A DNA stretch of 64,000 bases from Dehalococcoidia bacterium. Lineage in GTDB: Bacteria > Chloroflexota > Dehalococcoidia > Lucifugimonadales > Lucifugimonadaceae. The translations under genes were made by a program, and so were the position numbers. Positions 16,309 to 30,897 of the stretch are shown piece after piece. Under the pieces are notes generated by a model. That model saw only the letters and a program-made list of their open reading frames with translations, was not told the DNA's origin and did no database searches. The number at the start of each line of letters is the position of its first letter. The stretch's first letter is position 1. The stretch spans positions 1 through 64,000 of the forward strand of contig JAJEGY010000036.1 of the NCBI GenBank assembly GCA_022819585.1, in the 5' to 3' direction.

Positions 16309-16448
16309 TTATTGACCGAGTATCATTTGAGGAAAGCGGTGTCGGCAACGAGTTGATTGGCGTAAATGAATTATGTTGCAGCAGGGTGATTTTGGGTTGA
16401 TTGTCTGTTCAATGCGAAGATCCGGCATTTAACGGGAAATGGAGCGTC

Positions 16449-19400
16449 ATGGCAACTGTAGAGAATAGAGCTACTGATGCATCGATAGGGTTGGAATCGA
16501 ACGGTAAATCTCGGTTTCGTGACGCAATGGAAGGCATTTTGAAGGAACCGATCGCCGTAGTCGGCATGGCGTGTCGTTTCCCTGGTGCGAATGATGTAGA
16601 GGCGTTTTGGCGGTTGTTGATGGATGGTGCGGATGCGGTGACGGAGGGTGTGCCTGGTTCGGGTGTCGGACGTATTGGTCAGCTGTTTTCGAATGCTGAT
16701 ATCCAGAATGATGCATGCAGGTTCGGGGGGTATCTGGACGAGGTTGACCTCTTTGACGCAGCGTTTTTTCGTATTTCGCCAGTTGAGGCGCAGTTTTTAG
16801 ATCCGCAACAACGGCTGATGTTGGAGACCAGTTGGGAGGCGTTGGAAGATGCGGCGATTGATCCGGAAGGTTTAATGGGCAGTCGCACCGGGGTTTACGG
16901 TGGCATCAGCACCAACGACTACCGCGGGATGATCATGGATTCGAGCGATACCTCGGAGCCGGCGGCGAGTCTCTACACGGTGAGCGGCACTTCGTATAAC
17001 ACGGCGATCGGACGAGTTGCGTATGCGTTGGGATTCAGAGGCCCGGCGATCGCCATCGATACAGCGTGTTCGTCCTCATTGGTTGCAGTTCATCAGGCAG
17101 TGACGGGATTGCAGCGCGGAGAGGCCGATTTGGCTCTAGCGGGAGGCGTTCACACTATTCTGAGCGCTCGGTTGTTGGAGCTTCGGGGCAACGCGGGGAT
17201 GTTGTCGCCGGATGGTCGTTGCAAAACTTACGATGCGTCGGCAAACGGGTATGTGAGAGGGGAAGGCTGCGGCATATTGGTCTTGAAGCGGTTGAGTGAA
17301 GCTGAGGAAGACGGGGACCGGATCTGGGGCGTGATCAGGGGATCGGCGTTGAATCAGGATGGGGCGAGTCAAGGCCTGACGGTTCCAAACGCCGATGCGC
17401 AACGGCAGGTTATCGAAGATGCGTTAGATAGTTCGGGGATTCGTGCTTCAGACGTGGATTACGTCGAGGCTCACGGGACGGGAACTCCAGTCGGCGATCC
17501 GATCGAGATGGAGGCCTTGGGTGCGGCGTTCAGCGCCGATCGCGATTCTAGAAATCCTCTGCTTGTCGGATCAGTAAAGACGAATTTCGGCCACTTGGAG
17601 GCAGCGGCGGGTGTTGCTGGAATGATGAAGGCGATCTTGGCGTTGAAGCATGGTGTGATCCCCAAGCACCTGCATTTCAAGGAGCCTAATCCTGAGATCG
17701 ATTGGGACAATATGCCGGTCCGCGTGACCGCAGAAGCGACTGAATGGCCGGATGTCACCAGTCGTAATCGGATAGCCGGAGTTAGCGGTTTCGGATGGTC
17801 GGGGACGAACGCTCATGTGATTTTGGAGGGGTATGGGGTTGATGATGGCTCGTCGGCAGGTTCGAACGGGTTAGATCCGAACGCGGGCAGAGCGCGGAAT
17901 GTGGACGTTTCGGTGCCGATGAATTTTGCCGTAGAGACGGCAATTTATGCCACAGACTTGCCGCGATCTAAGCGTTTTTTGCCGTTGTCCGGCAAAACTG
18001 CGGCAAGTTTGCATGATCAGGCCGAGAGTTACTTGTCGTGGTTGGAGAAACGGTTCCCGAATGAGGGATCAGGCGAACTTGGGGAATTTGCAGATATTGC
18101 TTGGACTGCTGGTGTGGGGCGGAGCCATTTCGAATATCGAGCGGGTGTGATGTTCAGCGATGCTGCGTCGCTGAAGGCAGCGTTGTCGGAGGTGATTGAA
18201 AACGGTGACGCGGCTGGTCCTGCAGCGGCGAAGAAGATCGCATTGGTCTATACGGGCCAGGGCAGTCAGTGGTTGGGGATGGGTGAGTCGCTTTACGAGC
18301 GGGAACCCGTTGTGCGGATGGTGCTGGATCGGTGTGAAGAGGTGATGATTGAAGAGCGAGGGGTTTCGTTGCTGGATGTGATGTTTGGTCGTAAGGAAGC
18401 GCGGGGTGATCTGCATGACACGGGTTGGACTCAACCGGCGGTTTATGCGTTGGAGTGTGCACTGACGGCGCTGTGGTCATCGATTGGTATCGAACCTAGT
18501 GTCGTGATTGGTCATAGTCTGGGGGAATTTGCTGCGGCCCGAACGGCGGGCGTGTTCGGTTTGGAAGATGGCTTGAGGTTCGTGGCGAAACGTGGCGCCT
18601 TATTGTCGTCAGTGCCGGAGTTAGGGGGCATGGCGGCGATATTTGCTCCCAAGAGAGAGGTATACGAGGCGGTTCGAGAGCACAATTCCGTTGCAGAAGG
18701 TCCGGGGCTGTGCGTGGCGGTTGATAACGGCGTGCATCAGGTTGTGAGTGGGCCCGTTGCGGATATCGAGGCGATATCGGAACGGTTTGAGGCTGAAGAG
18801 ATCAGGGTCCGGCGTTTGAGGAATCAGGCTTTCCATAGCGCGTTGGTCGAGCCTGCGCTGGATGAGTTGGAGGAAGCGTACGGGGCGGTTCGCTTTTCGG
18901 CACCAGGGTTGGAGCTTATCAGTAACGTCACTGGCAGTGTTATCAAGCCAGACGAGAAACTGGATGCTGGTTATTGGAGGCGTCATGCCAGACAGTCCGT
19001 CGAGTTTCAGTCGGGGATCGATACGATGGCAGAGCTGGACGTCGACCTAGTTATAGAGGTTGGTCCGAATGCGGTTCTAGGGCCGTTGGTGTCGATGGCT
19101 TGGCCGGGTATGACTGCGGGTGGTCGAGCAGCTAAGGAGCCGGCGGTGCTCGCGAGTCTGTTAAGGAACTATGATGAGCTGCCGTTAGACGAATATGACG
19201 ATGGATTTTTGACGGCCGTCGCGGGTGCTTACGAGGCGGGATTAGAGATCAAGTTCGAGGGGCTGTTTGCAGGCGAGACACGGCGGAGGGTGTCGCTGCC
19301 GTCGTATCCGTTCCAGCGCGAGCGTTTTTGGGTTGAGGCGCCGAGGCGCAAGCGAGCTGCCACAGACCATCCACTCCTAGGCTCGCGACATGAATCGCCC

Positions 19401-22400
19401 CGCGGCGAGGTGTTGTATGAAATCTTGATGTTCCCGACCGATCCGGCGTGGTTGGGCGATCATCGAGTATTCGGACGTGTGATCATGCCAGGAGCGATGT
19501 TCGGCGCAATGGCGGCTTCGGTTTCCTCAAGGGAAGTCGGTCAAACGGTTGAAGTTGAAGACCTCCAGTTGCACAATCCAATGGTTTTTGCCGAAGATGA
19601 CGGGGACGAAGAAGGGGGTGAGGTAGGACGCAGAGTCCAGTTGGTGTTCGAGGATTCGGATGTCGGATCAGGTAAGCGGCTGGAAATTTACAGCAGGGGC
19701 GAAGATGACGACGAGTGGACGCTTCATGCGGAAGGCGGCGTTGCGGATACCGGTCAGTCGCCTAGCAGTGGTCGGCGCATAGACCTTGCGGCTGAGAAAT
19801 CGCGGTTGAAGTCCCGGGATGTTGCGGAGTTTTACAAGGAAAAAGAGAGAGTCGGCATCGAATTTGGTCCGACGTTTCGCTCCGTAGACGCGTTGTGGTC
19901 TGGTGATGGAGAAGCGATTGGCGAGGTTTCGCTCGCGGAGTCTCTGCGCAGCAGCGGGTTGGAGGCGCATCCGGTCTTGCTGGATGGCTGTTTTCAAGTT
20001 TTGTCCGCAGCGCGAAACGTCGCAGAGGATGGTGATCAGTCAACATATCTGCCGTTCGGATGGGAACGGTTGTGGTTACGCGAAGCGTTGCCGGATCGTG
20101 TCGTCTGCCATGCTCGGATGAGGGAATCCGTGCGACGAAGCGAGGAGGAAGACGATCCTGCGTCAGTTATGGAGACCTTCACAGGTGACCTGCGTCTGTA
20201 TTCCACGGATGGAGTAGAGCTTGGGAGTTTTGAAGGGTACACAATCAAACGGGCGACTCGCTCCGCGTTGTTGGCAGATACCGAGGAGATCGACGATCTG
20301 CTGTACGAGGTTGTGTGGAGGGATCGCCCCCTCGAGACGGGGACAGTTCCGGCCGATTTTCTTCCGACACCTCGTAGCGTCGCGACGCGATCTCGGCGCT
20401 TCACAGAGTATTTAGCTGACGAAGGTGTCGATTCTGTCAGCAGACAGGAGCTGTTGACAGATCTTGAACGCCTATCTTGGTCGTTCGCGCTGGCGACGTT
20501 AGAGAAGTTGGGTTGGGAGCGCGAGAAGGGTACCAAGGTAGAACCGGAAGAATTGCGTGAACGACTCGGGGTGTTGCCTGAGCATTCGCGACTGTTCCGT
20601 CGGTTGTTCGAGCTGCTTGCGAGAGCGGGTGCGGCGACACCGTCGGGAGATGAATTTGTTGTTGTGGTTGGGCCGCAGGATCATTTGCCGGAGCTGATGC
20701 CTCTTAACGTTGACGAGTTTGCAGATGAGATGTTACGTAAGTACGAACACGGTTCGACGGAAGTTGGACTGTTTCGGAGATGCGCTGGTGCCTTGGCAGA
20801 TACAGTCCAAGGTAAAGCTGATGCTTTGACGTTGCTGTTTAGCAGCGGAGAACCCACAGCCGCAGATCTGTATTTCAATGCGTCGGCTTCCCATGCGTCG
20901 AACAGGATGCTCGGGGATGCTATGGCATCGATGTTGATGGAGTTACCTGAAGGCCGGCGGCTCCGGATTTTGGAGGTTGGCGCTGGGACGGGTTCGGCGA
21001 CGGCGTCGGTACTTCCTGAGTTACCGGACGGCCGGTTTGATTATGTGTATACCGACATCTCGGCGGGATTTTTCGCAGAGGCTGAAAGCAAATTCGGCGG
21101 TGCAGAGGCATCGATTGAGTATCGAGTGTTGGACATCGAGAGAAGCCCAATAAGGCAGGGATTCGACGCGCACAGTTATGACTTGGTGATCGCTTCCAAC
21201 GTGTTGCATGCCACGCGTTTTCTGAGTGAGACCTTGGAGAACTGTTTGGAATTGCTCGCACCTTCAGGAGTTTTGGTGGCGTTAGAGAATCTGCGTGGGC
21301 AAGGGTGGATGGATCTCACGTTTGGTGTGTTGGATGGCTGGTGGCGGTTCGCAGACGACATCCGGCCGCATCATGCATTAGCTGGCCCCGATATATGGAA
21401 GCGGGCACTGGGTGAGGCAGGATTTGTTGAGACAGCGGTTTTGGGTCCCGATGCGTCGGATGCCGGGCAGAGGCCCGATCGCGGCGTAATCATGGCGCAG
21501 GGACCAGCTGAAGTCGCGGAATCCCCAGGAGTTTGGATATTAGTGCCCGACGGATCGGGTGTGGCGCTGGATCTGGCAGCGGAGCTTGCAGGAAGGAACC
21601 AGACCGTTTTGCTGGCCAGTGAATCCGCGGATTCAGCTAGTTCGATCTACGACGAAACCTCAGGAGTGGTCGAGAGCCCTGTTGAGTTCAATAATCGTGA
21701 ATCTTGGCGATCCTTGCTTGCGGAATTGCCGGAGGAAGCGACGGTCAACGGCATCGTCCATATGGTCGGACTTGATGGACATGGAGCCGATGCGTCGACA
21801 GTTGAGTTTGGCGATGATACGAAACGGATATCCAGCACTGCTTTGGCCATGATCCAAGGTGCTATAGACGCCGATGTCAGTCCGCAGAATGGCGTATGGT
21901 TTTTGACTCGTGGCGCTCAAGTGCTGGAGCGTGAGAACTTGGGCGAGGTCGCAAGCGCCGTACTTTGGGGGTTTGGCAAAGTAGTGGACCGTGAGGCCCC
22001 TCAATTGCAACCTCGCATGATCGATCTAGATCCCGAGGATCGGGTGCCTATAACCGAGGTGGTCGATGAGTTGCTGCGTCCCGATGACGAGACTCATATC
22101 GCCTATCGGTACGAACGTCGGCGAGTAGCTCGTTTGGAGAGAACGGGGACGACAGATTACAGGTTGATGCTGCCCGACGATTCGGCTTGGGTTATCAAAC
22201 CTGACGAAAGCGGTGATATCGAACAACAGCGAGTTGAAAAGTTACCAGCACGCCCCTTAGCGCCAAGCGAAGTTCGTGTAGCGGTCGATGCTGTGGGTGT
22301 CAATTTCCGTGATGCTATGGTCGCGATGGGGATGCTCGACGACGATGTGTTGGGAGGAGAAGTGGTTGGTAGGGTGCTCGAAGTTGGCCCCGACGTGGTT

Positions 22401-25400
22401 GGGGTGTCGGAAGGTGATCGAGTCGTGGGATTGTGCTTCAGATCATTCTCTAGCGAGGTTGTGACACGCGCGGAGTTGCTGGCACCCGCGCCTCCAGGGT
22501 ATTCGGCATCCGCGCTTGCGACTATGCCCCTGACGTTTACGACGGTTGCCCTTTCTTTCGAGATTGCGAAGTTGAAATCCGGGGACAAGGTTCTTGTCCA
22601 CTCCGGCGCAGGGGGTGTGGGACTATCAGCGATCCAGATGGCGCATGCGATGGGCGCGGAGGTGTTCGCGACCGCGAGTACGAGAAAGCAAGAATATCTG
22701 CGCTCTATAGGTGTGAAACACGTTTTTGATAGCCGGCAAACGGATTTTGGTGCGGAAATCCTAGAAGCAACCGACGGGAATGGCGTAGATGTTGTGCTCA
22801 ACTCCTTCACTGGCGAGGGTTACATTGACGCGAGCTTGTCCTGTCTGACAGTCGGTGGCCGATGGATCGAATTGGCCGCAGGAGACATACTGAGCGAGGC
22901 GGAAATGGCAGCGGTGCGTCCCGATGTCGAGTACTCGATACTCGAGCTTGACTCGCTTAAGACGTATGATCCGGTACTACCTGGGAACGCTTTGAGGCGT
23001 GTGATGGAACAGGTATCTGAGGGAGAACTGCACCCCATTGCGCACAGCAGGTGGCCATTGGCAGAAGCGGGTTCTGCAATGCAACACATGCGCTCCGCGC
23101 GGCATATCGGCAAGCTGGTGCTCACTAAATCTCCGATGCAGACAGGCAGCTTGCGCGCGGACAGGACCTATCTGGTCACTGGAGGTCTGGGCGGCATCGG
23201 GATCGCGCTGGCTGAGTGGCTGGCGGATCATGGTGCCGGATGTATCGTGCTAAACGGCCGTCGTGAGCCGGATCGAGAGGCCGAGGAAGCTATTGACGCG
23301 TTGCGCAGCCGCGGAGCAAGGATCGAGGTTGAGCTGGCTGATGTGACCGACACCGCGGCAATTGACGCGATGTTGGAGCGTATCGATGCGAGGTTACCGA
23401 CCCTCGGTGGCATCATTCACAGCGTCGGAGTCCTTTCTGACGCTGCTCTTGCCAACCAGAGCTGGGAAAGGTTCGAGCAGGTTCTTTGGCCCAAAGTCCT
23501 CGGCGCGTGGCATCTCCACAGATCTACGATGGACCGAGACTTGGAGCTTTTCATCATGTTCTCGAGTGTGGCGGGAGTGCTGGGCAATGCGGGTCAGGCA
23601 AACCACGCGGCGGCGAACGCATTCTTGGATCAACTCGCAGGGCATCGCCGCGCGATGGGTTTGCCAGGACAGACGATAGCGTGGGGTGCTTGGTCGGAGT
23701 TGGGTGAGGCCGCGGAGCAGCGAGAGCGTATAGAGGGTCAATTGGAGTCAGTCGGAACTGGCTGGATAACACCTCGGCAGGGGATCAGGGCCTTTGAGCA
23801 TTTGGTCCGGCAAGACATCACGAGCGGCATGGTGGCGTCGGTGGATTGGCCGACATTCCAGAAGGCACACGAGGGTTCGTTCCCGTTGCTGGAGGAGTTG
23901 CTGTCCGTCTCTTCCGACGAGGAATCCACGGCCGAGAGATCGACTGAAACACTGTTAGAGCGATTGAGCGGGAAGCAGATGATAGATCGTGAAGAGATCT
24001 TGGTTGAGTATCTCCAAGAGGAACTTCAAGCAGTTATGCGTCTGCAGAGCGCGCCATCGTCGTCAGTGGGATTTTTCGATCTGGGAATGGATTCGTTGAT
24101 GGCGGTTGAATTGAGGAACCGGTTGAACCGTGCGTTTGAGGGTGAGTACGTTGCTTCAAATACGATCGTTTTCGACTATCCCAATGTATCTGAAATGGCA
24201 GGCCACCTTGCTGAGGAGCTAGGAGACGTCGGCGAAGAGAAGCAGGTATTTTCGATTGCTATCGCATCGACGCCGGAGCCTAGCGTAGATTTGCAGCGCA
24301 ACGAGGACGGGATCGCGATTGTTGGTATGGCTGGTCGATTCCCATTCGCCGATAACCTGTCGCAGTTCTGGGAGATGCTGGAGTCGGGCACAGACGCAAT
24401 AACCGACGGACGTCAGGGCATCGGATCGTGGGAAGGAGCAGTCGGCGATCCCAATGCTGACGATATTGCTTACAGACGCGGTGCGTTCCTATCAGATATC
24501 GATCTCTTCGATTCGAGGTTCTTCAGGATTTCTCCTATTGAAGCGAGGATGATGGACCCTTGTCAGAGGATGTTGCTTGAAACCAGCTGGGAGGCACTTG
24601 AAGACGCAGGAATCGATCCTGGTGTATTACGAGGGAGCCGAACCGGAGTTTATGCGGGGGTAGGTCATAGCGAATATCGAGACTTGATCGAGGCGAGCGG
24701 TCGGGCGGACAGCTATCTCGGAACAACGGGTAGTGTAACGGCGGGAAGAGTTGCCTTCGTTTTGGGTTTGGAGGGCCCAGCTTTGCCAGTGGACGCGGCG
24801 TGTGCGTCATCGCTGGCATCAGTGCATCAAGCCGTCGTCGGCCTGCGTCACGGAGAGGTTGATATGGCGCTCGCAGGTGGCGTTAACCTGGCTCTGTCAC
24901 GCTCGGTGTCGCGTTTCATGATGGATGTCGGCATGTTGTCGCCTACTGGGGTTTGTCGTCCTTTCGATGCCGCCGCTGATGGTTACGTTCGCGGAGAGGC
25001 TTGCGGAATGGTGGTGTTGAAGCGGTTAAGTGACGCTGAAGCCGACGGTGACCGAATCTGGGCGATAATTCGCGGCTCCGGGGTCAATCAGAATGGGACT
25101 AGCGCGGGTCTGACGGTCCCTAATGGCCAGGCTCAACAACGAGTGATGCGGGACGCGCTGGTTCAGGCAGGAATTGTGCCAACAGAGGTCGACTATTTGG
25201 AGACCCATACAACCGGATCAGAAATGGCTGACCCCATTGAAGTGAACGCTGCCGCCGCAGTTTACGGCGAAGGGCGAGAAATGGACCAGCCCCTGCTTCT
25301 CGGATCCGTCAAATCGAACCTTGGTCACACAGAATGGGCAGCTGGCGTCACAGCGTTGATCAAGACCGTGTTGTCAATGAACCAAGGCTTGATTCCAAAG

Positions 25401-26804
25401 CATCTGCACTTTGAAGATCCGAATCCTCACGTCGATTGGGACAATTTGCCTATAAAAGTGACAACTGACAACACTAAATGGCCCAACGGGAATGACCGAG
25501 CGCCAATCGCGGCTGTAAACGCGTTTGGCATGTCTGGGACCAACGCTCACATATTGGTCGAAGGCTACAGGGAGCCCGACGGGTCGAATGGCTTGACGAG
25601 GTTGCCGGTCGGAACCCCTCGCAACATATCGGTCTCGTCTAACGGAGTGCTTCAAGATTCTGTAACCAACGATGGACAGGAGACCGCGCCGCGCGCGGTT
25701 CGCCTCCTACCGCTGTCGGGCAGATCAGCTGGAGCACTTCGAGACATGGCGATTCGCTACATCGATCTGTTAAATGCGCAAGAAGACGCAGTATCCGACA
25801 ATTGGTTGTCTGATTTGGCGTGGACTGCGAGTGTCGGTAGGAGTCATTTCGAACATCGCGCTGGTGTTGTATTCGACGATATCGATTCTTTGGAGCGTGG
25901 GTTGAACCATGTGGTGGACAACAGCGTCTCCGATGACGAAAGCACCGAACGTGTGACTAGGAGAGTGGCATCCATCTATCTAGACAATGGAGTGCAGGAT
26001 CTCGACATCGCCAAAGCGCTTTACGAAACCGAACCAGTAGTTAGATCAGTTTTCGACCGATGCGAAGTCGCACACCAAGAACTGCGTGGAGCTTCATTGA
26101 TACAAGTGCTGAGAGGTCAAACTGAAACGTCCGATGCAGACGAAGATCTGGCGACGATAGTAGCCGCCATATATGCGTTCAATTGTGCCTTAACCGCGCT
26201 CTGGTTCAGCGTTGGAGTAAACCCCAGACTTGTGTTCGGTAAAGGATTCGGAGAGGTGAGTGCGGCACAAGCGACTGGAGCGTTCGATCTTGAGGATGGT
26301 CTGCGGCTATCGACGGCTCTCGGTACACTCGCCGCTGCGAGAGCGGGAGGCGAGTCGTTCGAGGCTGCGTCGGAAGCGTTAAACACGGTCTTGAGCCAAA
26401 TCGCGTGGTCGGAGCCGACGATCCCGTTATTCAGCGCCTCAACCGGAAAGGAAATCCGAAGAGAAGATTTGATGAATGTTAGTCACTGGTCCGCCGAGAC
26501 GGTTGCCGGACCAGGCGTTGACGAGATGCATCGCTTACGTTCATCACAGGTGGATTTAGTCCTCAAATTCGGTCAGGGGAGTGATGCTAGTTCGAAGGTG
26601 GATTGGCCGATCATAATTGGTGCCTTGGACGGTACAGGCGACTCCATAGATAGCCAGAATTCGAATCGCGCATTCGTGAGTGCATTGGCCGAGGCATACG
26701 AATCTGGCCTAGCTTTGACGTGGGACGGATTGTTCGCCGGTGAACAGCGGTGCCGAATAGGGTTGCCAACATATCCGTTCCAACGTCGTCGGCATTGGTT
26801 CTGA
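16449..26804 (+). CDS. Reducing type I polyketide/fatty-acid synthase, KS-AT-DH-MT-ER-KR-ACP-KS-AT(inactive)
   Basis: A 3,451-residue megasynthase from ATG 16449 (GGAG four bases before it; a TTG at 16401 would add 16 residues). Landmarks by nucleotide: KS1 Cys in DTACSSS at 17067, His at 17472 and 17593; AT1 GHSLGE serine at 18516 with AFHS (malonyl type) near 18826; DH HRVFGRVIMP at 19461 and Asp 19983; C-methyltransferase LEVGAGTG near 20970; ER HSGAGGVG near 22600; KR TGGLGGIG near 23175; ACP LGMDSL serine 24093; KS2 DAACASS Cys 24801, His 25206 and 25326; degenerate AT2 with GKGFGE near 26238. KR has GQANH where the catalytic Tyr is expected. No thioesterase. Predicted to make a reduced, methyl-branched chain. 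It resembles the small PKSs of sponge symbionts, but I cannot confirm that. Confidence 0.9.
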   Translation: MATVENRATDASIGLESNGKSRFRDAMEGILKEPIAVVGMACRFPGANDVEAFWRLLMDGADAVTEGVPGSGVGRIGQLFSNADIQNDACRFGGYLDEVDLFDAAFFRISPVEAQFLDPQQRLMLETSWEALEDAAIDPEGLMGSRTGVYGGISTNDYRGMIMDSSDTSEPAASLYTVSGTSYNTAIGRVAYALGFRGPAIAIDTACSSSLVAVHQAVTGLQRGEADLALAGGVHTILSARLLELRGNAGMLSPDGRCKTYDASANGYVRGEGCGILVLKRLSEAEEDGDRIWGVIRGSALNQDGASQGLTVPNADAQRQVIEDALDSSGIRASDVDYVEAHGTGTPVGDPIEMEALGAAFSADRDSRNPLLVGSVKTNFGHLEAAAGVAGMMKAILALKHGVIPKHLHFKEPNPEIDWDNMPVRVTAEATEWPDVTSRNRIAGVSGFGWSGTNAHVILEGYGVDDGSSAGSNGLDPNAGRARNVDVSVPMNFAVETAIYATDLPRSKRFLPLSGKTAASLHDQAESYLSWLEKRFPNEGSGELGEFADIAWTAGVGRSHFEYRAGVMFSDAASLKAALSEVIENGDAAGPAAAKKIALVYTGQGSQWLGMGESLYEREPVVRMVLDRCEEVMIEERGVSLLDVMFGRKEARGDLHDTGWTQPAVYALECALTALWSSIGIEPSVVIGHSLGEFAAARTAGVFGLEDGLRFVAKRGALLSSVPELGGMAAIFAPKREVYEAVREHNSVAEGPGLCVAVDNGVHQVVSGPVADIEAISERFEAEEIRVRRLRNQAFHSALVEPALDELEEAYGAVRFSAPGLELISNVTGSVIKPDEKLDAGYWRRHARQSVEFQSGIDTMAELDVDLVIEVGPNAVLGPLVSMAWPGMTAGGRAAKEPAVLASLLRNYDELPLDEYDDGFLTAVAGAYEAGLEIKFEGLFAGETRRRVSLPSYPFQRERFWVEAPRRKRAATDHPLLGSRHESPRGEVLYEILMFPTDPAWLGDHRVFGRVIMPGAMFGAMAASVSSREVGQTVEVEDLQLHNPMVFAEDDGDEEGGEVGRRVQLVFEDSDVGSGKRLEIYSRGEDDDEWTLHAEGGVADTGQSPSSGRRIDLAAEKSRLKSRDVAEFYKEKERVGIEFGPTFRSVDALWSGDGEAIGEVSLAESLRSSGLEAHPVLLDGCFQVLSAARNVAEDGDQSTYLPFGWERLWLREALPDRVVCHARMRESVRRSEEEDDPASVMETFTGDLRLYSTDGVELGSFEGYTIKRATRSALLADTEEIDDLLYEVVWRDRPLETGTVPADFLPTPRSVATRSRRFTEYLADEGVDSVSRQELLTDLERLSWSFALATLEKLGWEREKGTKVEPEELRERLGVLPEHSRLFRRLFELLARAGAATPSGDEFVVVVGPQDHLPELMPLNVDEFADEMLRKYEHGSTEVGLFRRCAGALADTVQGKADALTLLFSSGEPTAADLYFNASASHASNRMLGDAMASMLMELPEGRRLRILEVGAGTGSATASVLPELPDGRFDYVYTDISAGFFAEAESKFGGAEASIEYRVLDIERSPIRQGFDAHSYDLVIASNVLHATRFLSETLENCLELLAPSGVLVALENLRGQGWMDLTFGVLDGWWRFADDIRPHHALAGPDIWKRALGEAGFVETAVLGPDASDAGQRPDRGVIMAQGPAEVAESPGVWILVPDGSGVALDLAAELAGRNQTVLLASESADSASSIYDETSGVVESPVEFNNRESWRSLLAELPEEATVNGIVHMVGLDGHGADASTVEFGDDTKRISSTALAMIQGAIDADVSPQNGVWFLTRGAQVLERENLGEVASAVLWGFGKVVDREAPQLQPRMIDLDPEDRVPITEVVDELLRPDDETHIAYRYERRRVARLERTGTTDYRLMLPDDSAWVIKPDESGDIEQQRVEKLPARPLAPSEVRVAVDAVGVNFRDAMVAMGMLDDDVLGGEVVGRVLEVGPDVVGVSEGDRVVGLCFRSFSSEVVTRAELLAPAPPGYSASALATMPLTFTTVALSFEIAKLKSGDKVLVHSGAGGVGLSAIQMAHAMGAEVFATASTRKQEYLRSIGVKHVFDSRQTDFGAEILEATDGNGVDVVLNSFTGEGYIDASLSCLTVGGRWIELAAGDILSEAEMAAVRPDVEYSILELDSLKTYDPVLPGNALRRVMEQVSEGELHPIAHSRWPLAEAGSAMQHMRSARHIGKLVLTKSPMQTGSLRADRTYLVTGGLGGIGIALAEWLADHGAGCIVLNGRREPDREAEEAIDALRSRGARIEVELADVTDTAAIDAMLERIDARLPTLGGIIHSVGVLSDAALANQSWERFEQVLWPKVLGAWHLHRSTMDRDLELFIMFSSVAGVLGNAGQANHAAANAFLDQLAGHRRAMGLPGQTIAWGAWSELGEAAEQRERIEGQLESVGTGWITPRQGIRAFEHLVRQDITSGMVASVDWPTFQKAHEGSFPLLEELLSVSSDEESTAERSTETLLERLSGKQMIDREEILVEYLQEELQAVMRLQSAPSSSVGFFDLGMDSLMAVELRNRLNRAFEGEYVASNTIVFDYPNVSEMAGHLAEELGDVGEEKQVFSIAIASTPEPSVDLQRNEDGIAIVGMAGRFPFADNLSQFWEMLESGTDAITDGRQGIGSWEGAVGDPNADDIAYRRGAFLSDIDLFDSRFFRISPIEARMMDPCQRMLLETSWEALEDAGIDPGVLRGSRTGVYAGVGHSEYRDLIEASGRADSYLGTTGSVTAGRVAFVLGLEGPALPVDAACASSLASVHQAVVGLRHGEVDMALAGGVNLALSRSVSRFMMDVGMLSPTGVCRPFDAAADGYVRGEACGMVVLKRLSDAEADGDRIWAIIRGSGVNQNGTSAGLTVPNGQAQQRVMRDALVQAGIVPTEVDYLETHTTGSEMADPIEVNAAAAVYGEGREMDQPLLLGSVKSNLGHTEWAAGVTALIKTVLSMNQGLIPKHLHFEDPNPHVDWDNLPIKVTTDNTKWPNGNDRAPIAAVNAFGMSGTNAHILVEGYREPDGSNGLTRLPVGTPRNISVSSNGVLQDSVTNDGQETAPRAVRLLPLSGRSAGALRDMAIRYIDLLNAQEDAVSDNWLSDLAWTASVGRSHFEHRAGVVFDDIDSLERGLNHVVDNSVSDDESTERVTRRVASIYLDNGVQDLDIAKALYETEPVVRSVFDRCEVAHQELRGASLIQVLRGQTETSDADEDLATIVAAIYAFNCALTALWFSVGVNPRLVFGKGFGEVSAAQATGAFDLEDGLRLSTALGTLAAARAGGESFEAASEALNTVLSQIAWSEPTIPLFSASTGKEIRREDLMNVSHWSAETVAGPGVDEMHRLRSSQVDLVLKFGQGSDASSKVDWPIIIGALDGTGDSIDSQNSNRAFVSALAEAYESGLALTWDGLFAGEQRCRIGLPTYPFQRRRHWF

Positions 26805-26913
26805 TTTGATCCACGTCGGGCCGGCTTACATCCCAGTCGAACCCATCAAAACTTAGATAGTTCAGTGAGATCAGATATGATCACAGCGTTAAATTGCCGA
26901 TTGATGAAGAAAC

Positions 26914-26942
26914 AAGCATGATTACTTGCTAAAATCATGCTT
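26914..26942 (+). terminator. Hairpin between PKS and ACP genes
   Basis: A 10-bp perfect stem (AAGCATGATT / AATCATGCTT) with a 9-base loop lies between the PKS stop and the ACP ribosome site. The T-tract after it is short, so partial termination or mRNA processing is as likely as full termination. It could set a different ACP level relative to the PKS. Confidence 0.45.
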
Positions 26943-26977
26943 TAGCGCTAACCAAACAACAGGAGGATTGAAGATCC

Positions 26978-27214
26978 ATGGCATCCACAGCAGATCGAGT
27001 GCGCGAATTGGTCAACAGTAACTTGGAAGTCGACGGCAAGTCGGTAAGCGTTGGAGACGACTTGAACGTTAGCCTGACCTCTCTCGGTGTATCGTCGGTG
27101 GACATTGTGTCTTTCGGGAGGCTAGCGAACGAAGAGTTCGGCCTGTCCCTTACGGTCGAAGATTGTGCAAACATCGCGACCTTGCAGGAATTGGTTGATC
27201 GGATAGACGGCTAA
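26978..27214 (+). CDS. Free-standing acyl carrier protein
   Basis: A 78-residue acidic protein with the carrier-protein helix II motif TSLGVSSVDIVSF, in which one of the two serines (GVSSVD) would carry phosphopantetheine; the usual DSL is SSV here. The helices around it (DRVRELVNSNLEVDGK; ATLQELVDRIDG) fit a discrete ACP. AGGAGG at 26961-26966 lies 11 bases before the ATG. It sits 173 bp after the PKS, whose last KS-AT pair has no ACP of its own, and 122 bp before the PPTase gene, so it is probably the trans carrier for the terminal KS. Confidence 0.85.
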   Translation: MASTADRVRELVNSNLEVDGKSVSVGDDLNVSLTSLGVSSVDIVSFGRLANEEFGLSLTVEDCANIATLQELVDRIDG

Positions 27215-27240
27215 ATCCGACAACCCGACTGAAATTCGGT

Positions 27241-27295
27241 CCGTCGCAACGATTACCCTTCGCCGTTTACAGGTGTCTGCATAAGGTTGCGACGG
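27241..27295. repeat. 10-bp inverted repeat between ACP and PPTase genes
   Basis: CCGTCGCAAC (27241-27250) and its exact complement GTTGCGACGG (27286-27295) flank 35 bases. The spacing suits an operator or a long-looped mRNA hairpin. There is no T-run worth calling a terminator. Confidence 0.5.
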
Positions 27296-27336
27296 CACCG
27301 TTTGATTTCTCAGTATTGACTAGTTGATCCGCAGAT

Positions 27337-28041
27337 ATGATCCCCGTTGACGAGCGGTGGTGGCGGGAATACAGGTCGATCGATGATGTAGTTGTCTACC
27401 AGGCGGATGTGTCAGAGGACGATCGTCGCGAAGCACTAGCTGCACACATGCTCGACGAAGAGGAGTCTGAGCGTTCGCGAACGTTTATTTTCCCCGGTCC
27501 CAGACGCCGATTTGTTTTCTGTCGCGCCGCATTGCGTTCAATTCTGTGCCTACGCATAGGTTGCTCGAATGGTGATTTGCGATTCGGGACTACTGATCAG
27601 AACAAGCCGTATGCGCTCGTCCGAAACGAACCCATCGAATTCGGGTTCAATGTCAGTCATAGCGGGGAATATGGGTTAATCGCCGTCGGAAAACCATTGC
27701 TCCTAGGCGTGGATGTGGAACAGCGCAGACAAAGGCGGGACTTTGATCTTCTGATCTCGACAGTGTTCAGTGAGGAGGAGCGGAATACAATTTCGATGGT
27801 CGAGGCTGAACGAAAGCATGACGTATTTTTCGATTACTGGACTGTGAAAGAAGCAGTTCTCAAGGCGTTGGGTTTGGGGTTGTCATCTGTGGAGCCTTCC
27901 CTGATCGAAGTTCCGCAAGAACTGAGAGCAGGACAGAAGTCATGCTTGGCTGAGTTTCCTAAGATTTCTTCTGCGATTTGGCGGATCGAGGACATTGGAA
28001 ACGTAGCCTTCGCGGCGGCACTAGCTTTCAAAGTTGACTAA
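27337..28041 (+). CDS. Sfp-type 4'-phosphopantetheinyl transferase
   Basis: A 234-residue PPTase that moves phosphopantetheine from CoA to the serine of carrier proteins. The three family motifs are present: FNVSHSGEYG at about residue 105, LGVDVEQ at about 125 (Mg-binding acidic pair) and FFDYWTVKEAVLKALGLGL at about 164. Length is normal for the Sfp group. Its position directly after the PKS and ACP genes says it activates both the internal PKS ACP and the free ACP. No strong ribosome site is visible at ATG 27337. Confidence 0.9.
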   Translation: MIPVDERWWREYRSIDDVVVYQADVSEDDRREALAAHMLDEEESERSRTFIFPGPRRRFVFCRAALRSILCLRIGCSNGDLRFGTTDQNKPYALVRNEPIEFGFNVSHSGEYGLIAVGKPLLLGVDVEQRRQRRDFDLLISTVFSEEERNTISMVEAERKHDVFFDYWTVKEAVLKALGLGLSSVEPSLIEVPQELRAGQKSCLAEFPKISSAIWRIEDIGNVAFAAALAFKVD

Positions 28042-28126
28042 AAACCTTGAACAGCGCGGTACTGATCGTTCTGTAAACTGCATTGGGATGGATGATGCTG
28101 TGATTGACGCAACTTGGGTTTTGATT

Positions 28127-28151
28127 GGGATTTATGAGGACGACTACGCGT
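28127..28151 (+). repeat. Left terminal inverted repeat of the IS1595 element
   Basis: 25 bp, identical to the complement of 30808-30832. Target duplication TTTTGATT is directly outside (28119-28126). The stop codon of the small minus-strand gene (28144-28146) lies inside this repeat. Confidence 0.95.
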
Positions 28152-28284
28152 CGTTGACTTCTTCGTTGTCATCGCTTGCTTCGTCTAAGTAGTCTTCGGG
28201 AAAATCAGCAGGGTTGAGACTGAGTGCTGCTGAAGCAATCTCTTCGGGCGTAGCGTCGATGCGTTCAAGCTTCGGATCAGTCAT
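28144..28284 (-). CDS. Small acidic protein of the IS1595 element
   Basis: A 46-residue protein (MTDPKLERIDATPEEIASAA, acidic C-terminus ending NDA). ATG 28284 follows a GAGAG site, which is why it is preferred to a GTG at 28440 that overlaps the transposase stop and would give 98 residues. It lies downstream of the transposase on the same strand, and its stop is inside the left inverted repeat, so it belongs to the element. Function unknown; an accessory or regulatory role in transposition is possible. Confidence 0.6.
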   Translation of the reverse strand: MTDPKLERIDATPEEIASAALSLNPADFPEDYLDEASDDNEEVNDA

Positions 28285-28436
28285 TGATTCTCTCGTTTTC
28301 GTCGGATAAAATCGACTGCGGGGAGAATAAAATTGACCTAGCGTTTTTTCCTCTAGGCTTTCGGCTTCACGAACGCTAGACAAAGCCTCCCCGCGTTGTG
28401 TGTATTGTAGACACTGCGCAGGTGCAAATACCTGTG

Positions 28437-29366
28437 TCACTTCGTCAAGTCATCGTATGTGAGACGCTTCCCGACGCTCAGCATCACCATGACTGACATC
28501 TGATGTATCGGATCGAGCAGACGCAGATTGTTGCGTCCCACAAATTCATCCACGTATCTGTGCATGTGCTTGCCGCTCCACCAGTGGTACGTGCTGTATC
28601 CGCGTTTCAGCATCGCCCAGAACGCTTCGATGCTGTTCGTATGAACTGCACCGTTGACGTACTGCTTCGTTGAATGCTTGACTGTCCTGTGATATCGCGG
28701 CATTCTCCGGTATCCCGGATGCTCGTCTGTGTACACCCTGGTCTGCGGATCAGTTCGCGACAAGACAAAACGTTGCAACGTTGCTCGATTTGTCGAATGG
28801 ACGGGTCCCGCTGCTACGAATCCGTTGCGCCTGTAGACCATTCCGATTACCGGATGTTTGTCTACTGGTCCGCGTCCGATGTAGCGGCGTTTGTGAAGCG
28901 GTCTGTTTTTGATCTTGCCGCCGATGTAGGTCTCGTCGCACTCGACAACTTCAGGGACGCCGTTTCCCGGTGTCCCTCTTCCTATTTGAGCTTGGTTCCA
29001 CATCTGCCGTATGCGGTGCATCATGAACCAAGCTGACGGTTGCGAGATTCCGAGATGCTTGCTCATCTGCACGCTGCTCACGCCTTTCGAGTGAACAGAC
29101 ATGAGATACATAGCTATCAGCCACTTTCTGAGTGGTATGCGAGTTCTCGCAAACAACGTTCCGCTCGTTGCTGAGAAGTACCGTCGGCACCTGCGACAGT
29201 AGTACGGCATCGGCTTGCGATTGATGCGACGAGAAACGTCTTGTTTCGCGCACCGCGGGCAACGAACGCCGCCGGGCCATCGTTGCTCTGCGAACCAAGC
29301 CTCGGCTTTGCGTTCGTTTGAGAACATCTCCATCGCTTCTATGAGCGATGTTTGTCTGGTTTTCAT
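28437..29366 (-). CDS. IS1595-family (ISXO2-like) transposase
   Basis: A 309-residue DDE-type transposase. An N-terminal zinc ribbon (CPRCAKQDV ... YYCRRCRRYF) binds DNA. The catalytic domain shows VECDETYIGG, VYTDEHPGY and NSIEAFWAMLKRG, the D-D-N-K pattern seen in part of the IS1595 family. The frame is full length and undamaged, so the element may be active. It is transcribed away from the cargo genes. Confidence 0.95.
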   Translation of the reverse strand: MKTRQTSLIEAMEMFSNERKAEAWFAEQRWPGGVRCPRCAKQDVSRRINRKPMPYYCRRCRRYFSATSGTLFARTRIPLRKWLIAMYLMSVHSKGVSSVQMSKHLGISQPSAWFMMHRIRQMWNQAQIGRGTPGNGVPEVVECDETYIGGKIKNRPLHKRRYIGRGPVDKHPVIGMVYRRNGFVAAGPVHSTNRATLQRFVLSRTDPQTRVYTDEHPGYRRMPRYHRTVKHSTKQYVNGAVHTNSIEAFWAMLKRGYSTYHWWSGKHMHRYVDEFVGRNNLRLLDPIHQMSVMVMLSVGKRLTYDDLTK

Positions 29367-29421
29367 CGTGTATGACTTCTTTCTGGTCGTGTGGTTGCGA
29401 GCATTTGGAAGTAATGTACGT

Positions 29422-29451
29422 TGCTCGCAGGTTTAGTCTGTGTTAATAATC
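29422..29451 (+). promoter_or_regulatory. Candidate promoter for the cargo side of the IS1595 element
   Basis: TTGCTC at 29422-29427 and AATAAT at 29446-29451 are 18 bp apart and resemble sigma-70 -35 and -10 boxes. They point towards the structured stretch and terminator at 29544-29582 and the cargo genes. The weak -35 makes this tentative. Confidence 0.35.
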
Positions 29452-29454
29452 TCT

Positions 29455-29583
29455 TCTCGCTGTGTTAGTGTTTAATCAAGTCGCCGCGAGGCGATAAAGA
29501 GATTGCCCAAACAACTTCTTTCTGGTCGTGTAAGCGTCTCTCCGAAGGCACCTGTTGCGAGCAGGTGCCTTCTACTTTTTTCA
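29455..29583 (+). ncRNA. Candidate structured leader RNA in the IS1595 element
   Basis: Between the divergent transposase and cargo genes lies about 130 bp without an ORF, containing a TCGCC-GCGA-GGCGA hairpin (29481-29494), an 18-bp direct repeat (29514-29531, copy of 29375-29392, ACTTCTTTCTGGTCGTGT) and a strong terminator. A short transcript from the promoter near 29422 would end at the terminator, giving a small RNA or an attenuated leader. No known RNA family was recognised. Confidence 0.35.
29544..29582 (+). terminator. Rho-independent terminator inside the IS1595 element
   Basis: An 11-bp perfect stem (GAAGGCACCTG / CAGGTGCCTTC) with a 7-base loop is followed by TACTTTTTT. It is a strong plus-strand terminator located before, not after, the cargo genes. 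Confidence 0.85.
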
Positions 29584-29808
29584 CGCTATCACACGCGTAC
29601 GTTTGAACTTCTCGCTCTGTGGATTTCCTGCGCAACCCTCTCAATCGCAGTTTGCGTAGTAACGTTGAAGTGCTGTCTCACCGTGATTTCTCAGTCGCGT
29701 TGAATGCGCCGGTATGTCGGCAGGGCGTATCGCGCCCCCTCGTTCGGCGCGATTGAGCAAACGGTTGAGACAGCAAGCGACCACTGCCCATGCCGCGAGG
29801 GGGTATCC

Positions 29809-30078
29809 ATGCTCACGCGCGTTGTCCAGACGCTTCTAGTTGCTTGCGTCTCGTTTCTGATCGTTGCAGCTTTTACCTGCGAAGAAGATTTGCCGACACC
29901 TTTACCGACAGCTTCATCAACGCCGACAGTTGTTCCGACATCAACTCCTCTTCCGATCTTCGCAACTCGCGAAGCTGAGCGACCACCGACTGCTACTCCG
30001 ACTGCAACTTCAACTCCTTGGGCTGTGACTTGCTCACCTGGAGTTGACGACGAAGACTGTCCAGAGCTGTTCGATTGA
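29809..30078 (+). CDS. Small Thr/Pro-rich lipoprotein, IS cargo
   Basis: An 89-residue protein with a signal sequence (MLTRVVQTLLVACVSFLIVA) ending in a lipobox-like AFTC, so probably lipid-anchored after Cys cleavage. The mature part is rich in Thr and Pro (PTPLPTASSTPTVVPTSTPL), like spacer regions of the chromosomal surface proteins in this window, and ends with two Cys and acidic residues. GAGGGGG lies about six bases before ATG 29809. No known family. It is the first cargo gene of the IS1595 element. Confidence 0.65.
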   Translation: MLTRVVQTLLVACVSFLIVAAFTCEEDLPTPLPTASSTPTVVPTSTPLPIFATREAERPPTATPTATSTPWAVTCSPGVDDEDCPELFD

Positions 30079-30192
30079 AGTCTGATACACTTCCAGACGC
30101 TGTCTCAATTGTTGCTCGCATCTCGCAAGAAGATCGCGTTCGGCTGCTGATTCAGCAGTCGATTCTCAACGCGAACTTGAGAGGTGCATCAA

Positions 30193-30399
30193 ATGGAGCA
30201 GCACATCCCTGCCACAACTGTGACGAAGGAACACGCTCGAATATATCTAGGACTAGCCCACGTTTCGTCGATCAACGAATACGCGCAACAAGGCAAGCTC
30301 GAAGCTGTGAAAGTCAAGGGAATCCGAGCTCGACAGATCACAGTAGAGAGCTTGGAGAAGTTTGAACGCGAACGCAATAGATTTGGATCGTGTTTATAA
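30193..30399 (+). CDS. Excisionase-like helix-turn-helix protein, IS cargo
   Basis: A 68-residue protein with an HTH_17/excisionase-like layout: VTKEHARIYLGLAHVSSINE (helix-turn-helix), then YAQQGKLEAVKVKGIRAR and QITVESLEKFERER, the usual wing and closing helix. A GAGAGG site eight bases before ATG 30193 decides the start. Such proteins bind DNA and either regulate transcription or bend DNA during recombination. Here it could regulate the cargo or the transposase. TGCGAGCA motifs and their complements near 29394, 29424, 29556 and 30112 are possible binding sites. Confidence 0.6.
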   Translation: MEQHIPATTVTKEHARIYLGLAHVSSINEYAQQGKLEAVKVKGIRARQITVESLEKFERERNRFGSCL

Positions 30400-30420
30400 T
30401 TGCAAGCAAGCTGAGAGGGA

Positions 30421-30543
30421 GGCGACGTGTGGTTCTGAACTAGTGACGCATCGCCAATTACGCTTGCTAAGCGACCCCTTAGCCAACAAGGCAGGTTTTG
30501 GATCAGTGGTAGAACTTTGTCGCGATCCGCAACCTGCCTTGTT
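30421..30543. repeat. Hairpin cluster ending in a 20-bp imperfect inverted repeat
   Basis: Within the gap between the last two cargo genes, AACAAGGCAGGTT...GGATC (30485-30504) pairs with GATCC...AACCTGCCTTGTT (30524-30543) over 20 bp with a two-base mismatch and a 19-base loop. Directly before it, GCTAAG/CTTAGC (30466-30471 and 30478-30483) and GGCGA/TCGCC (30421-30425 and 30451-30455) form two further stems. It is either a structured RNA or a recombination-type site. Confidence 0.6.
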
Positions 30544-30575
30544 CTATGGTAATCCGAGAACGAAAGCAAGTAACG

Positions 30576-30800
30576 ATGGACGCTGAATTCCGAACTCGAT
30601 ATTACAGAGAAACTATTGCTGACTTGGTGTGTGTTATCTACAACCAAGAAGACTGGGACAAACAGACTGTCGCTGCGCAATTCCACATGGGCGATAAAAG
30701 TCTCGACTACACGTTTCCCGAAGGTGAAATTCCTGAAAAACTAACTAGAGAAGATGTGCTTGCAGCGATTGACAAGATTTTTGAGCGCGGCGGAGTTTGA
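30576..30800 (+). CDS. Uncharacterised 74-residue protein, IS cargo
   Basis: The protein starts MDAEFRTRYYRETIADLVCV and continues with YNQEDWDKQTVAAQFHMGDK and a final helix (REDVLAAIDKIFERGGV). ATG 30576 is chosen; an in-frame ATG at 30546 would overlap the preceding inverted repeat. The stop lies seven bases inside the right terminal repeat, so it is the last cargo gene. No family recognised. The mixed alpha/beta composition suggests a folded domain rather than a leader peptide. Confidence 0.5.
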   Translation: MDAEFRTRYYRETIADLVCVIYNQEDWDKQTVAAQFHMGDKSLDYTFPEGEIPEKLTREDVLAAIDKIFERGGV

Positions 30801-30807
30801 AGACCTA

Positions 30808-30832
30808 ACGCGTAGTCGTCCTCATAAATCCC
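30808..30832 (-). repeat. Right terminal inverted repeat of the IS1595 element
   Basis: 25 bp, exact complement of 28127-28151. Target duplication TTTTGATT follows at 30833-30840. Confidence 0.95.
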
Positions 30833-30897
30833 TTTTGATTTCTCGCGTGGAGGTCATTCCGTCGATCCGAACGAAGTGACGTAGGCGACAGATTGAT

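Follow-up and report, generated by a model that had tools for sequence, protein, structure and literature searches.

A cargo-carrying IS1595-family transposon with a putative translation-controlling leader RNA in a Dehalococcoidia bacterium

Transposons of the IS1595 family (PF12762/NF033547) can carry genes besides their transposase: both tISCpe8 and MTnSag1 have extra genes aboard, and in tISCpe8 the passenger is lincomycin resistance (PMC5704250). Among RNAs, leaders in which a pseudoknot sequesters the Shine-Dalgarno (SD) sequence form a general class of translational control elements, and the same phylum as our host has contributed the structured Chloroflexi-1 RNA of Chloroflexus aggregans, listed as Rfam family RF01698 among candidate motifs (PMC2864571). 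Here we analyse a stretch of 64,000 nucleotides from a Dehalococcoidia bacterium (contig JAJEGY010000036.1, positions 1 to 64,000; hereafter the window), and within it a mobile element at 28127-30832. The element resembles IS1595 in its transposase domains, its 8-bp target duplication, its GGG-starting inverted repeats and its possession of extra genes. Taken together, the evidence makes it probable that this is a compact cargo-carrying IS1595-family transposon whose cargo is headed by a translation-controlling leader RNA.

The outline of the element had been proposed in an earlier examination of the DNA from its letters alone (the sequence-only reading), and its borders are confirmed by our analysis. 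They are defined, together with the transposase, by the following features:

28119-28126 (left copy) and 30833-30840 (right copy), no strand: 8-bp target-site duplication TTTTGATT, read in the sequence
28127-28151, plus strand, and 30808-30832, minus strand: terminal inverted repeats, 25 nt each, 100% complementary
28437-29366, minus strand: intact IS1595-family DDE transposase, 309 amino acids (aa), with PF12762, PF12760 and NF033547

The element spans 2,706 bp between perfect repeats. Its terminal bases match at 20/20 positions, whereas shuffled loci (n=46) subjected to the same border test never exceeded 13/20. The transposase scores far above the curated cut-offs (given here in brackets) for PF12762 (106 bits; 27) and NF033547 (170; 75), possesses an N-terminal zinc ribbon (PF12760, 30.5 bits; 25.4), and has residues D144, D214, E247 and K254 that are invariant among its relatives, which supports the earlier family assignment. 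All open reading frames (ORFs) named by the sequence-only reading are present (transposase, acidic 46-aa, Thr/Pro-rich, helix-turn-helix (HTH) and 74-residue), and the stop of the 46-aa ORF does lie inside the left repeat. Because these genes are located within exact borders, they would be expected to move with the element, as had been suggested. That the insertion is recent, another of the earlier claims, fits the perfect repeats and intact duplication, but the search for an empty target site was negative: when the two flanks are joined, similarity to relatives begins only at position 401 of the 646, inside the hydrolase gene. In its own genome (2.47-Mb assembly, 42 contigs) the element is single-copy, with a diverged relative on contig C35 (transposase identity 54%).

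This second element provided the first clue to the leader RNA, since the stretch upstream of the lipoprotein-like gene in the window matches a short block within it. Both copies fold far better than their shuffles (z=-5.5 for the window, -4.8 for the second element). BLAST and exact pattern searches recovered only two clear copies, and a covariance model was needed to go further. More specifically, model R1, built from the window copy alone, picked up further copies, some in other IS1595 elements and some at chromosomal loci. Eleven of those, without the window copy, went into model R2, which then recovered the window leader at 127.9 bits (E=1e-26). Copies occur in 51/250 genomes of the order (E<=0.1), with up to 8 per genome, and in 11 genomes of 400 spread over the phylum (E<=0.001). 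Minus-strand matches at the window and a second match at locus L213 were left out as mirror images of the palindrome. The structure is composed of the following parts:

29672-29803, plus strand: structured leader RNA, about 132 nt, supported by fold z-score, covariance model, covariation and pseudoknots
29672-29684/29761-29774, plus strand: stem P1
29691-29706/29741-29756, plus strand: stem P2
29723-29727/29733-29737, plus strand: small C-rich hairpin P3
29719-29723/29784-29788, plus strand: pseudoknot PK1
29735-29742, plus strand: anti-SD strand, complementary to 29796-29803
29796-29803, plus strand: Shine-Dalgarno sequence CGAGGGGG, the conserved 3' end of the leader

Covariation was assessed on 75 distinct aligned rows, including one mirror-image match (the plus strand of L213). 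Standard pairs fill 89.7% of pair cells compared to 59.8% after shuffling, and the covariation score is 0.640, against 0.173 after shuffling and 0.07-0.085 after shifting partners by 1-3 columns; both sides have changed in 33 of the 34 pairs. Strong sequence conservation is confined to the P3 hairpin with its CCCCCU and to the AAGGGGG box. Neither PK1, which joins the 14 nt before P3 to the stretch between P1 and the SD, nor the pairing of the strand after P3 with the SD region was part of the model, and both therefore count as independent evidence. Variants of the SD are accompanied by compensating changes in the anti-SD strand, for example GCCCTCCTGTTG/CGACAGGAGGGC and GCCTCCTTGGGG/CCTCAAGGAGGC, and contiguous complementarity between the two reaches 13 pairs. 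Taken in isolation, the window SD pairs more stably with its own anti-SD strand (-21.9 kcal/mol) than with the 16S tail (-12.3). Two early models of the fold were discarded. The motif CACUGCC..GCCGCGAGGGGG of the window had pointed to a Twister-like ribozyme, which was rejected because of CUGUUC in L036 (through PK1 covariation) and the lack of an Rfam match, and the RNAalifold fold obtained from a plain MAFFT alignment of two copies was wrong.

The leader resembles the SD-sequestering class in being a structured 5' untranslated region (UTR) that ends in the SD and has an anti-SD strand and pseudoknots. It differs in its two long variable stems with two pseudoknots, its diverse exported-protein genes and its lack of an Rfam counterpart: searches with the Rfam covariance models, allowing E values up to 5 for the window and up to 1 for eight additional loci, turned up nothing plausible, whereas Chloroflexi-1 is itself an Rfam family. 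The literature we searched held no description of it either, and such absence, like that from Rfam, does not prove novelty.

In the window, the gene that follows is:

29809-30078, plus strand: Thr/Pro-rich exported protein, 89 aa, with a hydrophobic N-terminus, lipoprotein-like, led by the leader RNA

The earlier description of this product as a Thr/Pro-rich lipoprotein holds for its composition and its exported-type, hydrophobic N-terminus; the context of its cysteine, AFTC, is not a textbook lipobox. The arrangement recurs across the family. A led ORF of at least 60 aa lies close by in 60 of 74 distinct copies, and in 53 of these 60 it starts within -2 to +1 of the RNA end. Among led ORFs of at least 100 aa, 37/47 have a hydrophobic N-terminus compared to 70/514 other ORFs of the same loci (p=8.5e-21), and 21/47 have a lipobox-like motif compared to 27/514; Thr/Pro-rich linkers are recurrent among the led proteins. 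On this sequence evidence, we conclude that the leader is a predicted structured 5'-UTR family without an Rfam entry, common to many chromosomal exported-protein genes in these Chloroflexota.

Three loci have the leader in unusual settings. In L258, a copy (499-636) directly precedes a truncated IS1595-type transposase ORF. L265 (G058 C1:2021584-2027471) has three matches in 6 kb, the last two of equal score, and could hold a tandem family of led genes. In L234 (1676-3870), a leader-RNA gene lies between inverted repeats GGTACTGACTCATTTTGAAA matching at 19/20 positions; there is an 8-bp duplication, and an IS1595 transposase is absent. Leader-RNA modules may also be carried by a different family of transposons. 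Random positions also gave some inverted-repeat pairs.

We propose that the cargo forms an operon divergent from the transposase, comprising the leader, the exported Thr/Pro-rich protein, the HTH protein and the 84-aa protein described below. Translational control is suggested because the conserved C-rich strand can pair with the SD. Long stems P1 and P2 would present P3, whose 3' strand and flank (CCCCCUnG) would either stay in the hairpin or pair with the SD (CnAGGGGG); PK1 would position the C-rich strand and the SD, and the balance between P3 and SD pairing would set translation of the exported protein. That the leader switches and senses a signal we infer from this architecture. A bolder interpretation, which we hold to be possible but less likely than not, is that it may represent a novel class of RNA switch, either a riboswitch or one that responds to a protein, by which a signal would control surface or exported proteins in SAR202-type Chloroflexota; it would be spread between bacteria by a cargo-carrying IS1595 clade with a dedicated tiny accessory protein.

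Several points weigh against the proposed mechanism or limit its support. The alignment was fitted to the structure of the model, so that the covariation result leans towards P1-P3 (and not PK1 or the anti-SD pairing). For those two pairings, own partners fit better than permuted ones (z -9.1 for PK1 and -9.5 for anti-SD:SD, 0/2000 permutations), with permutations that ignore relatedness. P3 and the SD pairing draw partly on the same C's, which fits alternation and coexistence alike. The led proteins are diverse, with no common pathway that points to a ligand, and some, by reading, are not exported, such as those led in L240 (3942-4070; DUF262/GmrSD-type) and L261 (4018-4159; DNA methylase); these two leaders suggest a use beyond exported proteins. 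The tight placement before the start codon, the exported-protein bias and the want of a shared pathway would equally suit a constitutive translation element, such as a standby site or an enhancer, which would keep the SD of exported-protein genes accessible. We consider this explanation unlikely, while giving it more weight than any of the alternatives below, as a conserved anti-SD strand with compensating changes and so many contiguous pairs would occlude the SD and not expose it.

A different question is whether the element as a whole is anything more than an ordinary IS1595 element with chance-captured genes, in which the tiny protein and the RNA have no role. To place it among its relatives, we took the best 80 relatives of its transposase and counted an element as complete when at least 15/20 terminal bases matched and an 8-bp duplication was present. 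By this definition 59 of the 80 are complete; of the shuffled loci 0/46 pass the same test. The relatives come from metagenome-assembled genomes (MAGs) of many phyla, including Chloroflexi, Binatia, Alpha- and Gammaproteobacteria and Gemmatimonadetes, with the caveat that short mobile contigs can end up in the wrong bin (L139, assigned to a Gemmatimonadetes bin, may be an example). Many of the bin names are ones we take to be from sponge metagenomes, and judging from this MAG set the host of the window element would be a sponge symbiont.

Complete elements measure 1,235-5,438 bp (median 2,799), and 57/59 exceed 1.6 kb and therefore have extra DNA aboard. Within this clade, carrying cargo is usual and not exceptional. 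From the complete relatives and the order's elements, 111 cargo ORFs were predicted (mechanical ORF calls); of these, 21 match DNA methylase families (24 by PADLOC) and 9 match HNH nucleases, with HaeIII, BglII, MvaI and Mrr-type restriction enzymes represented by one or a few each. Frequent restriction-modification genes, large size and occurrence in MAGs of many phyla distinguish the clade from IS1595 at large, as does a tiny conserved accessory protein. Of the two free spaces beside the transposase, the larger is the downstream one in 58/59 relatives, whereas in the window element, and likewise in L109, it is the upstream one, so that the cargo is divergent from the transposase. Three cargo ORFs match IS66 transposase, and the elements of L155 and L169 hold near-identical small proteins, which suggests nested elements.

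The tiny accessory protein is encoded in the window as follows:

28144-28284, minus strand: acidic, element-bound accessory protein of 46 aa with core ERIDATPEEIASAAL, its stop 17 bp short of the element end

Iterated profile searches revealed that proteins of about 50 aa form a family, which shares the core P-I-D-A-T-P-E-x-x-A-R-A-L-L and, frequently, an N-terminal RGRP that resembles an AT-hook; a cleaned profile from which the window copy had been left out recovered that copy at E=4e-7. Representatives had no relative in Pfam, NCBIfam or PDB. The cleaned profile gives exactly one match in each of 41/57 complete elements and 2 matches in 397 kb of flanks, and the gene is usually last in the element with its stop mostly 5-40 bp from the end. 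The sequence-only reading had counted this protein as cargo, which its distribution contradicts: it is, on this evidence, a putative element-bound accessory family and not a passenger. Its role would perhaps be end binding or control of the transposase, and we propose that the transposase, then the tiny protein, would mobilise the element and produce the 8-bp duplication.

The remaining genes of the window element, with a hairpin between them, are as follows:

30193-30399, plus strand: HTH protein, 68 aa, weakly excisionase-like
30546-30800, plus strand: orphan protein, 84 aa if read from the first ATG and 74 aa if read from ATG 30576
30485-30543, plus strand: second stable hairpin, immediately upstream of the 84-aa gene

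The HTH protein matches HTH_17 (E=0.002; 18.7 bits, below the Pfam cut-off of 27) and excisionase PHROG 7735 (E=0.006), so that its earlier description as excisionase-like retains weak matches and gains no family match above cut-off. For the 84-aa protein, a single-sequence AlphaFold model of low confidence (predicted local distance difference test, pLDDT, 65) would give a helix, three strands and a helix. The second hairpin (-35.6 kcal/mol over 30478-30550, no clear T run) is possibly a second control element. Neither protein has a relative in 120 related genomes, and because of this both genes are truly unrecognised, which bears out the earlier remark that they resemble no typical passengers. 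Any roles we assign to them are inferred.

Capture by chance draws on these two orphans and on the passengers already known in the family. It looks rather improbable to us, given a tiny protein that occurs once per element and almost never outside, and a leader RNA deeply conserved as structure. The sequence-only reading had taken the same cargo at unrelated loci without the repeats as the sign that it does not belong to the element; the leader-RNA module does occur at many such loci, whereas neither the HTH nor the 84-aa gene turned up anywhere else in 120 relatives.

Two further explanations concern the leader RNA and are both very unlikely. The first has the 132-bp palindromic stretch acting at the DNA level: folded, it would serve for recombination or insertion in the manner of an integron attC site, and cassettes would thereby come to lie before genes. 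Patchy spread, several copies per genome and occurrence in mobile elements speak for it. Yet in P1 and P2 G-U pairs far outnumber A-C (203 to 39), a strand-specific excess that points to selection on this strand as RNA and speaks against a mere DNA palindrome; the distance to the start codon is fixed, the SD lies within the conserved core, P1 varies freely with compensation so that attC's conserved outer core box is missing, and two species of the genus share what seems to be an orthologous gene with its leader retained (L228, L225). The second, in which the RNA is part of the machinery of the transposon, for example as a guide or regulator of transposition, has in its favour nine or more complete IS1595 elements with a copy inside (window, L036, L046, L118, L138, L167, L175, L238 and L257) and an IS1595-type transposase match in the fetched locus for 8/60 leader-RNA loci from the genome searches, but the majority of copies are without a neighbouring transposase, and the RNA is missing from most elements of the clade.

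Other features of the region complete the description:

29544-29581, plus strand: terminator-like GC-rich hairpin with a T run, between the divergent transposase and leader RNA, from sequence and fold
29375-29392 and 29514-29531: direct repeat ACTTCTTTCTGGTCGTGT, two identical 18-bp copies in the 5' region of the transposase
16401-28041: modular polyketide synthase, 3,467 aa

The minus strand of the 18-bp repeat bears a ribosome-binding-like AGAAAGAAG, located in one copy right before the transposase start and in the other before a possible 12-codon leader ORF. The element is inserted in an intergenic position of a polyketide region, with a phosphopantetheinyl-transferase gene on one side and an alpha/beta-hydrolase gene on the other; a carrier protein and the phosphopantetheinyl transferase lie directly upstream of the insertion. 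The polyketide-synthase flank had no DNA match in 40 relatives.

These results describe one IS1595 clade that, in MAGs of many phyla, routinely carries genes, often for restriction-modification, and has its own tiny accessory protein family. The leader RNA would add to this a structured RNA family that has no Rfam entry, covaries strongly, contains two pseudoknots and obeys a clear rule for the genes it leads, in a widespread uncultured marine group in which little is known of gene regulation.

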